DNA of 64,000 nucleotides, from assembly GCF_014202415.1 (NCBI RefSeq), contig NZ_JACHGR010000002.1, forward strand, positions 62,001 to 126,000, given 5' to 3'. Below are positions 47,961 to 57,643 of this stretch, piece by piece. The notes under the pieces are model-generated. The model saw only the letters and a program-made list of their open reading frames with translations, was not told the DNA's origin and did no database searches. The stretch is from Tolumonas osonensis. GTDB lineage: Bacteria > Pseudomonadota > Gammaproteobacteria > Enterobacterales > Aeromonadaceae. The stretch's first letter is position 1. Each line of letters starts with the position of its first letter. A program made the position numbers and the translations under genes.

Positions 47961-48100
47961 TACGGCCTTCCTCCGGATTCAGCAATATCACTTTATGATC
48001 ATAGCAAGGCTGGATATGCGCGGCGGTCGGAGGGGGAAATTAATTTGGTGGCGTCATCAATCCTTCCACCCTGATAACTGGCTTGATTGTAACTGATGGC

Positions 48101-48123
48101 GGTATATACTCTAGGTATACACC
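48101..48123. promoter_or_regulatory. VapBC operator/promoter palindrome
   Basis: GGTATATAC-TCTAG-GTATACACC, 9-bp arms with one mismatch, 22 bp before the vapB start. Typical position for autorepression by the VapBC complex. Confidence 0.6.
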
Positions 48124-48145
48124 ATTTCGTAAACAGGAGATCGCT

Positions 48146-48379
48146 ATGTTGAATGGCTCAGTCTTTGTCTCAAATAAAACACAGGCAGTGCGTCTGCCGG
48201 TCGAAGCTCGTTTCCCTGATGACGTGAAGAAAGTGGTGATCCGCATTGTGGGAAATGAGCGGATTCTTACACCAGTTGAAAACACCTGGGATAGCTTTTT
48301 TCTGGGTGATGCGCAGGTGTCAGATGATTTCATGGCTGAACGTGCAACCCAGCATCAGCCAGAACGGGAATCATTCTGA
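48146..48379 (+). CDS. vapB: VapB-type antitoxin
   Basis: 77 residues from the ATG at 48146, preceded by AACAGGAGATCGCT. The N-terminal SpoVT/AbrB-like DNA-binding fold reads GSVFVSNKTQAVRLPVEARF followed by KKVVIRIVGNERILTP, and the tail (SFFLGDAQVSDDFMAERA) is the toxin-neutralising segment. It neutralises VapC and represses the operon. The stop shares one base with the vapC start. Confidence 0.92.
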   Translation: MLNGSVFVSNKTQAVRLPVEARFPDDVKKVVIRIVGNERILTPVENTWDSFFLGDAQVSDDFMAERATQHQPERESF

Positions 48380-48777
48380 TGCTGAAATACATGCTCGATA
48401 CCAACATTTGTATCTATGTCATCAAGCGCAGACCTTTAGAGGCACTGGCAAAATTTAATGAGAATGCGGGGGCGCTTTGTATCTCATCAATCACGATGGC
48501 TGAGCTTTATCACGGCGCGGAGAAAAGTGAGCAGCGTGCACGCAATCTGACTATCGTTGAAGACTTCATCTCTCGCCTTGAGGTGCTGAGTTATGGTGAA
48601 AAAGCTGCCTCGCATTATGGCGAGATCCGTGCTGATTTAGAGAAAAAAGGCACCATCATCGGGGTGAACGATCTGCATATTGCCGCGCATGCCCGTAGTG
48701 AAGCGCTAATTCTGGTGAGTAATAATCTGAAAGAATTCGAGCGTGTTGAAGGCTTACGAAGCTGTAATTGGGTATAG
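48379..48777 (+). CDS. vapC: VapC toxin, PIN-domain tRNA(fMet) endonuclease type
   Basis: 132 residues, PIN fold. Acidic residues Asp7 (YMLDTNICIYVIK), Glu42 (TMAELYHGAEKS) and Asp98 (GVNDLHIAAHA) are intact; the fourth position is Asn (LVSNNLKEFERVEGL), as is usual in the enterobacterial VapC branch that cuts initiator tRNA. When free of VapB it stops translation. Located next to the hydrogenase operon, but nothing links them functionally. Confidence 0.93.
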   Translation: MLKYMLDTNICIYVIKRRPLEALAKFNENAGALCISSITMAELYHGAEKSEQRARNLTIVEDFISRLEVLSYGEKAASHYGEIRADLEKKGTIIGVNDLHIAAHARSEALILVSNNLKEFERVEGLRSCNWV

Positions 48778-54327: not shown

Positions 54328-54414
54328 GATATTTCTACGCTCCGTTACAGTGGCTGATTTGACGGGGTGGTGTACCCATGATACTTTCAAAGTTCTCAAC
54401 TTAAAGGTAACTGC

Positions 54415-54825
54415 GTGTACTTAATGGATAAACTCAAGTGGTTCATCATCGCGTTCGTCCTCGGACTGACGTTGTGTGCCCATGCGTTTTATCCGGCTAA
54501 AATTGAGTTGTCTTCATCTGTCTCTCATTCGGCGTCGCAACAGCTTTTGGAAAACGGCGATTCTTTTAAGTTCATCGCCAGTAATCAGCAGTTAAGATTA
54601 CGTCTGTCTTCCGTGGTCAGCGATGACGATGACACATCTGATCCGGTTCTCTTTGATTTAATCAAAACCTGGGGCGGGGACGTGCTTGCGCTGTTCCTTG
54701 CCGGGTTGATATGGCTGATTCTCCCGTTACGCCATCAATCCAGCTCAGGTGCATTTGCCCGCTTCCCGGCAAATTACTGGAATCCTAAACACCTCCAATT
54801 CCGTTTTTCTCATTCCGGAAACTGA
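54415..54825 (+). CDS. small exported/membrane protein preceding secDF
   Basis: 136 residues from a GTG with AAAGG seven bases upstream; an ATG at 54424 is the alternative. MDKLKWFIIAFVLGLTLCAHA is a classic signal peptide with an AHA cleavage site. A second hydrophobic segment (VLALFLAGLIWLILPL) lies near residue 100 and a basic/aromatic tail follows (FARFPANYWNPKHLQFRF). No family recognised. It sits 75 bp before secD in the same direction. In Vibrio an exported arrest peptide, VemP, controls a secDF pair from this position; whether this protein is an analogue is speculation. Confidence 0.65.
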   Translation: MYLMDKLKWFIIAFVLGLTLCAHAFYPAKIELSSSVSHSASQQLLENGDSFKFIASNQQLRLRLSSVVSDDDDTSDPVLFDLIKTWGGDVLALFLAGLIWLILPLRHQSSSGAFARFPANYWNPKHLQFRFSHSGN

Positions 54826-54900
54826 TTTTTTCTCACCCAAAGTCTATTTACCGATCTATGCCTAATTTTTTCCGGCGTAGCGATTATTTCATTTTTGAAT

Positions 54901-56715
54901 ATGAATCAGACCATGATGAAGAAAAATACAGGTTTCATCAGAAACCGGATGAGCAAGTGGCAATACGCCATTCTTGCCTTGATATTTATTACATTCAGTT
55001 TTTATTCAATGCCTACCTTTTTCGGGGAAAGACCGGCGCTGGGCTTACATTACGCGCAGGCATGGGGCGGGAAAGATAAAACCATTCTGCAGGACAATCA
55101 GGTATCTCCCGATACCGTGATCCAGTCCGGGGAAAAAACATTACTGGTTTTTTCTTCACAAACCGATCAGCAGCGTGCTAAACAGCTATTGGAACTTAAT
55201 GGCTATGACAGCAGTGCGCTGACGCTGGAATACTTCTCCGATTCTCCGGCCTGGATGCAATCGCTGGGTGCAGCACCGATCCGGTTAGGGCTCGATCTCA
55301 GAGGGGGATCGCAGCTACTGATGGGCGTGGATACCGACTTCATTATCCAGAGTCATATCCGTAATTTTGCCGATACCTTACGCACGCAGTTTAAAAAGGA
55401 AAAACTGCGGGGAAGTACCATAGCGACAGGTGATGATGAGGTGGTCATTACCTTATCGGCGGAACAGGAAATGGCGCCCTGGCTAAAAATAATACGCCAG
55501 GAAACAGCAGGACAAACCAACACCTGGCTTTCTCAGCGTGAGGATAACCGGATTGTGCTCAGATTAAATGAAACCGAGCGCAATACCCTGATCAATAACG
55601 GGGTGACGCAGAACCTTTCCATTCTGAAAAAACGAATCAATGAACTCGGCATCGTGGAAGCGTCTGTGCAACGTCAGGGACAGAATGGCATCCGCATCGA
55701 GTTGCCCGGGGTGCATAACCCGAAACAGGCAAAAGATGTGATTGGTGCCACCGCGTCGCTGGCTTTTTATCAGGTCAGCGACAGAGGTAGTTACACACTT
55801 CAGGATAAATCGGACCGAACCATCAGCATGATGCGGGAACCCGTGCTCAGCGGGGAACATATCGTGGATGCACGAGCAGGCTCCGATGAAATGGGTCGTC
55901 CGCAAGTCAGTATTGTGCTGGATAAAACCGGTGGCGACAAAATGAACTGGTATAGCCGGAACAATGTCGGTCAGGCCATGTCGACGGTGTTTACCGAATA
56001 TAAAAATGCGCCAGATGGTTCGCTCAAAGCCAATAGCCAGGTGATTAACGTCGCCACGATACAGACAACATTAGGCAATCAGTTCCGGATCACGGGGCTT
56101 GATAATCTGGCAGAAGCGCAGGAACTGTCCATGTTATTGCGGGCTGGTGCACTGACGGCGCCACTGAAAATACTGGAAGAACGTTCGATAGGGCCGACCC
56201 TGGGGACGGAAAACATCAAAGCCGGTTTCACCGCATTGGCATTTGGCATGGCCGGCATGATGCTGTTCATGTTGATCTGGTACCGCCGCTTTGGCTGGGT
56301 AGCAATTGCCGGGCTGGTCATCAATTTACTGATGCAGGTTGGTTTACTGGCGCTCTTGCCGGGGGCCGTGTTGACGTTACCCGGTATCGCCGGACTGGTG
56401 CTCACCGTGGGTATGGCGGTCGATACCAATGTTCTGATCTTTGAGCGGATAAAGGATCGTTTACGCGAAGGCGGCACCCTGGCCAATGCGATCAACTTTG
56501 GCTACCGCTCGGCGTTTGTCACCATTTTTGACGCCAACATCACCACGCTGATCAGCGCTGTCGTGCTTTACAGCATCGGCTCCGGCCCGCTGCAAGGCTT
56601 TGCCATTACGCTGATCCTGGGTCTCATCTCGAGCATGGTGACCGGTGTCTGGGGAACCAGAGCCATCATCAATCCTATCTGGGGAAGAAGTTCCCTCAAA
56701 TTGCTGCGGGTATAA
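54901..56715 (+). CDS. secD: protein translocase subunit SecD (second-copy type)
   Basis: 604 residues from the ATG at 54901; TTG 54895 and internal ATGs to 54949 are possible, as no Shine-Dalgarno is clear. Six helices with a large periplasmic P1 region. Motifs: RLGLDLRGGSQLLMGVD, LKKRINELGIVEASVQRQG, GLVLTVGMAVDTNVLIFER carrying the coupling Asp, and TIFDANITTLISAVVLYSIG with GSGPLQGFAITL. Uses the ion gradient to pull proteins out on the periplasmic side. No yajC or tgt is nearby, unlike the housekeeping secDF locus, so this is probably an additional copy. Confidence 0.92.
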   Translation: MNQTMMKKNTGFIRNRMSKWQYAILALIFITFSFYSMPTFFGERPALGLHYAQAWGGKDKTILQDNQVSPDTVIQSGEKTLLVFSSQTDQQRAKQLLELNGYDSSALTLEYFSDSPAWMQSLGAAPIRLGLDLRGGSQLLMGVDTDFIIQSHIRNFADTLRTQFKKEKLRGSTIATGDDEVVITLSAEQEMAPWLKIIRQETAGQTNTWLSQREDNRIVLRLNETERNTLINNGVTQNLSILKKRINELGIVEASVQRQGQNGIRIELPGVHNPKQAKDVIGATASLAFYQVSDRGSYTLQDKSDRTISMMREPVLSGEHIVDARAGSDEMGRPQVSIVLDKTGGDKMNWYSRNNVGQAMSTVFTEYKNAPDGSLKANSQVINVATIQTTLGNQFRITGLDNLAEAQELSMLLRAGALTAPLKILEERSIGPTLGTENIKAGFTALAFGMAGMMLFMLIWYRRFGWVAIAGLVINLLMQVGLLALLPGAVLTLPGIAGLVLTVGMAVDTNVLIFERIKDRLREGGTLANAINFGYRSAFVTIFDANITTLISAVVLYSIGSGPLQGFAITLILGLISSMVTGVWGTRAIINPIWGRSSLKLLRV

Positions 56716-56716
56716 C

Positions 56717-57643
56717 ATGATGAATCTTTTCCGTGTATTAACACTGACCCATTACCGATACGCCGGGCTGATGCTTTCTATCGTTCTGACCTTATCGTCC
56801 GCCATTATTCTTTCGATCTATGGCCTGCACCTTGGGCTGGATTTTACTGGCGGGGTATTGCTGGAGCTCAAGATCCAAACCCTGAAAAACGCAGTGGAAC
56901 TGAATGCGTTACTGGATCCATCATTGTCGGACCACATTCAGCTGCAGTATAACGGCGTACCAGGCGACTGGCTGGTCAAACTACCGCCGCAGGACAGCGG
57001 GTTTGTGGCGACCGAACTGGTGCAGCAAATCAGTCAGGATCTGAATCTGCCGGTTGAATTGAGTAAAACCACCATTATCGGGCCACAGGTCGGAGCCGAA
57101 TTGTTTGAGCAGGGACTACTGGCGCTGCTGGCGGCATCCATCGCGATTTCGGTATATCTGGCGTTTCGTTTTGAATGGCGACAAGCCGTGGGGGTGCTGC
57201 TCTCCGTGTTGCACGATGCGGTGATCGCCCTGGGGGTATTGTCATTTATGCAGATCGAATTCGATCTCAATGTGATCGCCGGCTTAATGGCGGTAATTGG
57301 TTATTCTCTGAATGACAGCATTGTGATTTCCGATCGCTTACGCGATCTGCTGCGAAGTCCGTCAGCCGGAAATATTTACCAATGTTCCAATAGGGCGATA
57401 CGGGCTACTTTCAGCCGGACACTGATCACCTCGGGAACAACCTTATTCACCGTGAGCGCATTGCTGCTATTTGGTGGCGAAGCATTGTTTTCGTTCTCTT
57501 TTATTCTGTTTATCGGGGTATTGGTCGGTACGGTGTCCTCGATCACGATTGCTTCGACCGTCCAGGAGTTACTGGGCTTGAGTGCAGAGGCATACCTGAA
57601 AAAAGAGGTGCCTGAACAGGATGGCATGATGGAGTCGCTCTGA
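56717..57643 (+). CDS. secF: protein translocase subunit SecF (second-copy type)
   Basis: 308 residues from the ATG at 56717, one base after the secD stop (TAAC-ATG). Six helices. LGLDFTGGVLLELKIQTL near the N-terminus, VIGYSLNDSIVISDRLRDLL with the conserved Asn-Asp pair, and RATFSRTLITSGTTLFTVSA with LLLFGGEALFSFSFILFIG are the SecF blocks. Forms the SecDF complex with the preceding gene product. Confidence 0.93.
   Translation: MMNLFRVLTLTHYRYAGLMLSIVLTLSSAIILSIYGLHLGLDFTGGVLLELKIQTLKNAVELNALLDPSLSDHIQLQYNGVPGDWLVKLPPQDSGFVATELVQQISQDLNLPVELSKTTIIGPQVGAELFEQGLLALLAASIAISVYLAFRFEWRQAVGVLLSVLHDAVIALGVLSFMQIEFDLNVIAGLMAVIGYSLNDSIVISDRLRDLLRSPSAGNIYQCSNRAIRATFSRTLITSGTTLFTVSALLLFGGEALFSFSFILFIGVLVGTVSSITIASTVQELLGLSAEAYLKKEVPEQDGMMESL

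Follow-up and report, generated by a model that had tools for sequence, protein, structure and literature searches.

The small gene directly before a second secD-secF pair in Tolumonas osonensis probably encodes a monitor of protein export or insertion that belongs to the VemP family, acts through ribosome arrest and induces secDF2. It was found in the analysed window, a stretch of 64,000 nucleotides at contig positions 62001-126000 of a 3.29 Mb genome. We favour this reading because of the anatomy of the encoded protein and its hydropathy, the existence of a family linked to secD2, the selection acting on it and its homology to VemP, from which we strongly infer arrest, release by force and induction of the downstream genes.

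The frame would encode 136 amino acids from GTG 54415, or 133 from ATG 54424, the form whose residue numbers are used here (Table 1). The GTG start proposed in the initial annotation is plausible because an AAAGGT at 54403-54408 ends 6 nt before it. The remaining elements of the exported frame described there were also present, namely the AHA cleavage site, the second helix, the basic and aromatic C-terminal tail and the 75 nt that separate the stop codon from ATG 54901 of secD2; the signal peptide was called from sequence and hydropathy. The second secD-secF pair was confirmed by its Pfam/NCBIfam domains and by another pair on contig C6 of the same genome. Orthologues with 72-73% identity occur in three other Tolumonas genomes, and in a fourth a contig end leaves a C-terminal piece. 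Because of these orthologues and a pN/pS of 0.43 for the whole protein among 28 Aeromonas orthologues (the set in which constraint was measured throughout), the frame is, judged from sequence, a real gene. Scanning the protein against Pfam and NCBIfam gave zero families above the cut-off (best Pfam model below it, E-value (E) 0.21), and no match was obtained when the genome contigs were searched with the small protein alone as query.

A family tied to secD2 in the Aeromonadaceae

SecD2, with 64-100% identity to the SecD of the window, was found in 42 of 75 Aeromonadaceae genomes (Tolumonas 5/11, Aeromonas 35/37, genus g5 2/3), and 41 complete small proteins were collected upstream of it; TTG stands at the inferred start of the gene in all 28 close Aeromonas sequences. 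A profile (A2) built from 24 of the collected secD2-linked sequences matched 43 of the 75 genomes, which comprise all 42 with secD2 and Aeromonas fluvialis (G024), the only match among the 33 genomes without secD2; of the 32 genomes that gave no match, six are less than 90% complete. The expected linkage of the small gene to secD was thereby borne out, and the small protein is a conserved family strictly tied to secD2 in the Aeromonadaceae. In the Tolumonas genome G007 the match covers a C-terminal piece only (E 0.013), as the contig end cuts the gene. A frame ending in the C-terminal motif was seen in 29 of 30 named loci, a decayed one included, and the 30th (L143, in G007) is cut off.

The decayed locus is that of A. 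fluvialis (G024:C57; L087, L172), which has no full secD2 and carries the small gene in three frame pieces, adjoining what appear by eye to be secD2 and secF2 remnants. All three genes appear to have decayed jointly, and the frame of the C-terminal motif is still readable.

The genes upstream of the small gene-secD2-secF2 cassette vary between Tolumonas genomes. In a class-wide sample of 369 genomes, only the genome of the window itself gave a match. For most of the entries shown in the class and order searches the best 10 candidates were scored, so distant relatives may have been missed. Three weak order-wide matches (E 0.001-0.008), with alignments that end before the C-terminal motif, were rejected as chance, as was a second match in the window's own genome (E 0.029), antisense within a relA-like gene. 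In a tree of 27 SecD rows, 19 Aeromonadaceae SecD2 split from seven SecD2 of the VemP lineage (branch 100/98), which adds little because the outgroup is a single very long SecD1 branch.

Homology to VemP and constraint on the C-terminus

A sample of 394 genomes from the order yielded SecD2-type matches (E <= 1e-150) in 89, and 68 of these genomes lie outside the Aeromonadaceae. An upstream open reading frame (uORF) with WKxxNxx[YF] near its end was found in 25 of the 29 loci read of these 68; the remaining four comprise three related-looking uORFs with a changed end (family f16) and one locus where no uORF was seen. Comparison of 24 Aeromonadaceae rows with 25 VemP rows by hhalign gave E 1.1e-7 and a score of 48.8 over 83 columns reaching the C-terminus, and the full sets (41 and 27 sequences) scored 40.8 (E 5e-6; 2.4e-5 in the reverse direction). 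Controls for this full-set score reached at most 12.5 over 60 column shuffles and 15.9 with a reversed profile, and 12 comparisons with six unrelated profiles scored at most 19.3. With the C-terminal motif cut off, the VemP profile still scored 33.6, and the C-terminus alone scored 27.1.

The geometry of VemP is also retained. The distance from [YF]xL to the C-terminal Tyr/Phe is 49 residues in all four Tolumonas proteins and in 19 of 25 VemPs (47-50 in the others), 49-51 in the 37 other secD-linked proteins, and 49 in 21 of 22 members of an nqrE-linked sister group described below. In the hhalign alignment R60 falls into the column of the Arg carried by most of the VemP set, an Arg that in the VemP of L114 lies 58 residues before the Trp of WK, the same distance as from Arg-85 to Trp-143 in Vibrio alginolyticus; the V. 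alginolyticus protein stood outside the alignment, and its Arg-85 is equated with R60 by spacing. According to the part of PMC7793623 available, Arg-85 is crucial for stable in vivo arrest and acts during translocation, and W143A abolishes arrest in V. alginolyticus.

By profile comparison the small protein is a divergent VemP homologue that falls outside the published motif criterion, because it shows profile homology but keeps, of the VemP contacts, only the Tyr-150 position throughout. Of the RxxxWKxxNxxY-like criterion, as given in the main text of PMC10987492, R and K are absent, and the N is found in three of four Tolumonas proteins and none of the 37 others. The initial annotation had recognised no VemP motif and had proposed a convergent or divergent monitor. 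The former is true by eye, whereas the profiles (E 1e-7 to 2e-5) reveal the homology; of the latter, a monitor-like leader of a second secDF stands, and divergence from VemP replaces convergence. The Aeromonadaceae gene is like vemP in preceding the same SecD2 family and in encoding a signal peptide, the Arg-85 equivalent, the PxYxL block and a spacing of 49-50 residues to the C-terminal Tyr/Phe. It differs in the large loss of the RxxxWKxxN part, in the RF that follows Tyr/Phe in every collected member, and in a second transmembrane helix at a place that is soluble in most VemPs.

Altered ends were also seen among uORFs outside the Aeromonadaceae. The f16 uORFs (L130-L132) are exported and VemP-related without WKxxN, two of them ending LTHNL.RFAAWR.. 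and the third THLLALFAAWRG, and appear to be another lineage with an altered VemP arrest end. Six of the 27 collected VemP-type uORFs (L114, L120, L123, L135, L137 and L138) retain WKxxN yet end in [YF]RF.

Constraint on the small protein is strongest at the C-terminus, though not confined to it. The segment HLQYRFSQS has a pN/pS of 0.12 (pN 0.051, pS 0.437; whole-protein pS 0.447) versus 0.43 for the whole protein, as would be expected if the C-terminal residues were the most conserved. It is followed by the eight residues preceding it (0.19), the middle block (0.23), the VVYELIMSW block (0.30), helix 2 (0.50), the signal peptide (0.52), the last three residues (0.60) and the loop (0.82). The nine-codon window with the lowest pN is QRQHLQYRF (0.037), and next come windows around HQNHLLRLE (0.044). 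Because the low ratio at the motif occurs at ordinary synonymous divergence, this supports constraint on the peptide rather than on the RNA. Conservation in the middle of the protein, which would have counted against a monitor, was found around the Arg-85 equivalent and in helix 2, but the peak is at the C-terminus. All 63 collected proteins (41 secD-linked, 22 nqrE-linked) have [YF]RF, and the tail behind it is variable, with 5-13 residues downstream of the Arg.

Conservation of the middle region (pN/pS 0.23), two hydrophobic helices and strict co-occurrence with secD2 would also suit a small membrane protein that partners SecD2F2 in the ordinary way, as an accessory like YajC, working as a finished protein and binding SecDF2 through its C-terminal motif. 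This is unlikely, given the homology to VemP and a constraint that peaks near the stop codon, ahead of a variable tail; moreover, neither Pfam nor NCBIfam gave a YajC match, or any other family above the cut-off, and a paralogue with the same motif precedes nqrE2, where there is no sec gene.

Table 1. Coordinates of the small gene, its predicted elements, the leader and the secD2-secF2 pair within the window
Feature	Position	Strand	Basis or remark
Small exported protein gene, VemP-like leader	54415..54825	+	GTG 54415 or ATG 54424; stop 54823-54825
Predicted signal peptide, residues 1-21, end ..LCAHA	54424..54486	+	Sequence; KD19 hydropathy > 1.6 in windows from residues 4-7
R60, Arg-85 equivalent of VemP	54601..54603	+	Invariant in 24-sequence alignment; hhalign column
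PVLFDLIKTW, residues 74-83, counterpart of VemP PxYxLxxEF	54643..54672	+	F77 is 49 residues before F126
Second transmembrane helix, residues ~84-102	54673..54729	+	KD19 > 1.6 in windows starting 82-87
Putative arrest motif W119-N-P-K-H-L-Q-F-R-F-S-H-S131	54778..54816	+	C-terminal; orthologue alignment, constraint
Leader complementarity CTATGCC/GGCGTAG, loop 11-12	54856..54880	+	Readable in 4/4 Tolumonas leaders
secD2	54901..56715	+	Start 54901 or 54913; Pfam/NCBIfam
secF2	56714..57643	+	Pfam/NCBIfam

Proposed arrest, the second helix and the leader RNA

In the proposed mechanism, the signal peptide would bring the nascent chain to SecYEG. Once about 130 codons had been read, the motif W/L-x3-[NH]-LQ[YF]RF-x-[HQ] would lie in the tunnel beside the peptidyl-transferase centre and elongation would be arrested, with the P site some 4-6 residues past the Tyr/Phe and the second transmembrane helix just emerged from the tunnel. 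Working export or insertion would release the arrest, as the chain is pulled and the helix partitions; when export or insertion fails, the ribosome would remain stalled and secD2-secF2 would be translated.

Hydropathy at the place of helix 2 exceeds the KD19 threshold of 1.6 in 40 of 41 secD-linked and 20 of 22 nqrE-linked proteins, versus 2 of 25 VemPs. From the end of the helix to the fifth residue after the Tyr/Phe there are 29 residues in the median secD-linked protein, 26 in the nqrE group and 27-28 in Tolumonas. Such a distance between helix and arrest site is appropriate for a pulling force generated by membrane insertion, as known from force-profile work. Insertion through SecYEG does pull on an arrest peptide, as stated in the accessible part of PMC13307174. 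A helix at tunnel length from the motif and mostly missing from VemPs would also fit an arrest peptide that, like MifM, monitors membrane insertion (by YidC or the lateral gate) through helix 2 rather than Sec export or SecDF. We consider this rather improbable, since the downstream gene is secDF2 and not yidC, and the Arg-85 equivalent, which in VemP is linked to Sec translocation, is retained.

Several results weigh against an arrest-based VemP-family monitor. The homology score falls to 34.1 without the VemPs ending in [YF]RF and to 26.5 (E 0.0015) when two f16 sequences are also removed; with the motif and the N-terminus both cut it is 20.9 (E 0.0055), barely over the best control of 19.3. 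VemP contacts the tunnel through R139, W143, K144, Y150 and N154 (PMC5449182, in the part available). Tyr-150 is the sole contact position kept throughout, as Tyr/Phe (F in all four Tolumonas proteins), while W143 is kept in 4/4 Tolumonas proteins and 1/37 others, and R139, K144 and N154 in none. Conservation extends beyond the C-terminus, as four of the seven residues invariant in the 24-sequence alignment (R60, L79, W83, L92, G94, R127 and F128) lie in or beside helix 2. The energy for opening the Shine-Dalgarno sequence and start codon was 9.37 kcal/mol in Aeromonas versus 9.07 in dinucleotide shuffles, 7.28 versus 5.65 (standard deviation (sd) 2.17) in Tolumonas (n = 4), and 8.82 versus 8.89 in the nqrE2 leader. 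Masking by a stalled ribosome shifted it by -0.74 in Aeromonas (null -0.17, sd 1.46) and by -0.81 in Tolumonas (null -0.08, sd 1.29). Because these energy tests fail to separate leaders from shuffles, an RNA switch at the secD2 leader is not supported.

The loss of most contact residues would agree with a VemP remnant that no longer arrests and now only links secD2 translation to that of the frame before it, as a passive leader peptide; conserved hairpins in the Aeromonas leaders, one with compensatory changes, point the same way. We regard this as very unlikely, considering that purifying selection peaks exactly at the motif (pN 0.051, pS 0.437) and that [YF]RF is found in every one of the 63 proteins.

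A stem between CCGGAAA (54815-54821) and TTTCCGG (54869-54875) had been proposed for the leader between the small gene and secD2. Both arms are present in the window, but by eye their pairing is not preserved in three orthologous Tolumonas leaders, and the stem was rejected. The complementarity CTATGCC/GGCGTAG includes two G-U pairs in one of the four Tolumonas leaders; it belongs to the minimum-energy fold of the window leader, and in the folds of the other three, overlapping helices take its place. For Aeromonas, a ribosome-triggered switch between a stop-codon hairpin and anti-Shine-Dalgarno pairing was examined over 27 of 28 close leaders (A5), setting aside L040, which is near-identical to L033, and more distant loci. 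It gained no support, with no covariation there and negative energy tests. The anti-Shine-Dalgarno complementarity with the Shine-Dalgarno sequence and start pairs in 92.6% of cells without covariation, one side being nearly invariant, and the stop-codon hairpin shows one-sided changes only. As a counterpart to the stem-loop by which the VemP leader sequesters the secD2 ribosome-binding site, the Aeromonas leaders thus offer this conserved complementarity, with an opening energy similar to that of shuffles. A second hairpin covaries, with six of nine pairs changed on both sides and 72% of cells pairing. The covariation score of both hairpins together was 0.281 versus 0.157 when shuffled. For 29 leaders, with duplicates removed, alifold gave a z of -8 against the weak null of column shuffling. 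Between 54250 and 57900 promoter-like sites showed no excess (2 found, 4.6 expected), and terminator-like sites numbered 7 versus 3.8 expected (sd 2.2).

Sister genes before nqrE2 and relation to known leaders

A paralogue of the small protein lies directly before a solitary nqrE2 in 22 of 37 Aeromonas genomes (L080-L084, L090-L106). The family therefore does occur away from secDF, which the initial annotation had counted against a monitor, and the gene again stands directly before a membrane-protein gene. nqrE2 is present in exactly these 22 genomes and in none of the other 53 Aeromonadaceae genomes. The paralogue scores 61-83 bits with profile A2, and its own profile scores 113.8 (E 5.8e-19) against the secD-linked family and is not significantly similar to VemP when compared alone (score 14.4). 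It ends in HHLQ[FY]RFCH or close to it, with HLRFRF in two of the 22. The gap to nqrE2 is 151-203 nt in the 19 loci measured; the remaining three loci were inspected by eye. No nqrF-like frame was seen by eye among the frames listed downstream of nqrE2 in the 22 loci. A recJ-like frame lies upstream of the paralogue in both loci read whole, and 13 of the 22 loci gave a match to a crude recJ-tail pattern. NqrE2 shares 89-100% identity with the query copy and about 71% with the second NqrE that all 22 genomes possess, which is assumed to be the operonic copy. Cys26 is kept in 22/22 and Cys121 in 21/22; cysteines at about these places serve as Fe-S ligands.

Second nqrE copies in eight f6 genomes (L184-L191) and in G319 were rejected as parallels to nqrE2; they are second nqr operons, because an nqrD-like frame lies directly upstream and an nqrC-like frame before that. 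Ten genomes were examined in this reading, and further f6 genomes have two nqrE matches. One locus (L183, in G339 of family f19) has a solitary nqrE with 64% identity to NqrE2; a LexA-like gene lies upstream of it, and no monitor could be recognised there.

It is possible, and we propose it tentatively, that a VemP-derived sensor was rebuilt in the Aeromonadaceae with its own force-generating transmembrane helix, and duplicated in Aeromonas to control an alternative SecDF as well as NqrE2, an alternative subunit of the Na+-pumping NADH dehydrogenase. If so, a cell whose sodium-driven export or insertion falters would remodel the export motor together with the sodium pump that feeds it, and a VemP-type monitor would work outside the protein-localisation machinery. 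The Aeromonadaceae are mostly freshwater bacteria. The nqrE2-linked sisters would tie nascent-chain sensing to a respiratory sodium pump in a direct and testable way. They would not be the first arrest peptides outside Sec, because PMC10987492, in the part available, reports YwcI before sacT and cites the proposed CruR and CutF.

Among other monitors, MifM, found upstream of yidC2 in Bacillus subtilis, shares a hydrophobic helix before a C-terminal arrest region; the likeness is one of architecture, as the MifM layout is described in papers. It is set apart by motif and context, without a MifM profile comparison, the downstream gene here being secD2, and its motif RIxxWIxxxxxMNxxxxDEED, as given in the available part of PMC7897499, was not seen in the window protein. 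SecM has the general logic of a secretion-monitoring leader in common, but the downstream gene here is not secA, and FxxxxWIxxxxGIRAGP was not seen in the window protein either. The uDF_RQH_Enterobacterales and other RAPP-like (RQH) peptides are likewise exported uORF products before secDF2; none of RAPP, RGPP, RAGP, RAPG, HAPP and QAPP occurs in the 63 proteins, and L051 has a loosely similar HASP at its end.

A survey of uORFs before secA, secDF and yidC, in which VemP is classed by cluster and motif (PMC10987492), does not name Aeromonad or Tolumonas in its main text, and its supplementary clusters could hold an unnamed relative. Nothing on VemP with nqrE, VemP with Tolumonas, or nqrE with recJ and Aeromonas was found in the literature search. 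The Aeromonadaceae leader, divergent from VemP and carrying a membrane helix of its own, was not found described in the literature searched, in which texts mentioning VemP and Aeromonas together were left uncompared; a sister leader precedes nqrE2. Such a leader would extend VemP-type control of SecDF to the Aeromonadaceae, beyond the reach of the published motif criterion, and it illustrates how much the sequence of an arrest peptide may change with its geometry retained. If ribosomes stall on it, [NH]LQ[YF]RF would be a new arrest motif, and the protein a natural arrest peptide that carries its own force-generating helix.

Elsewhere in the window, at 48083-48777, two overlapping small frames were seen that by eye resemble an antitoxin and a PIN-domain toxin of the VapBC type.

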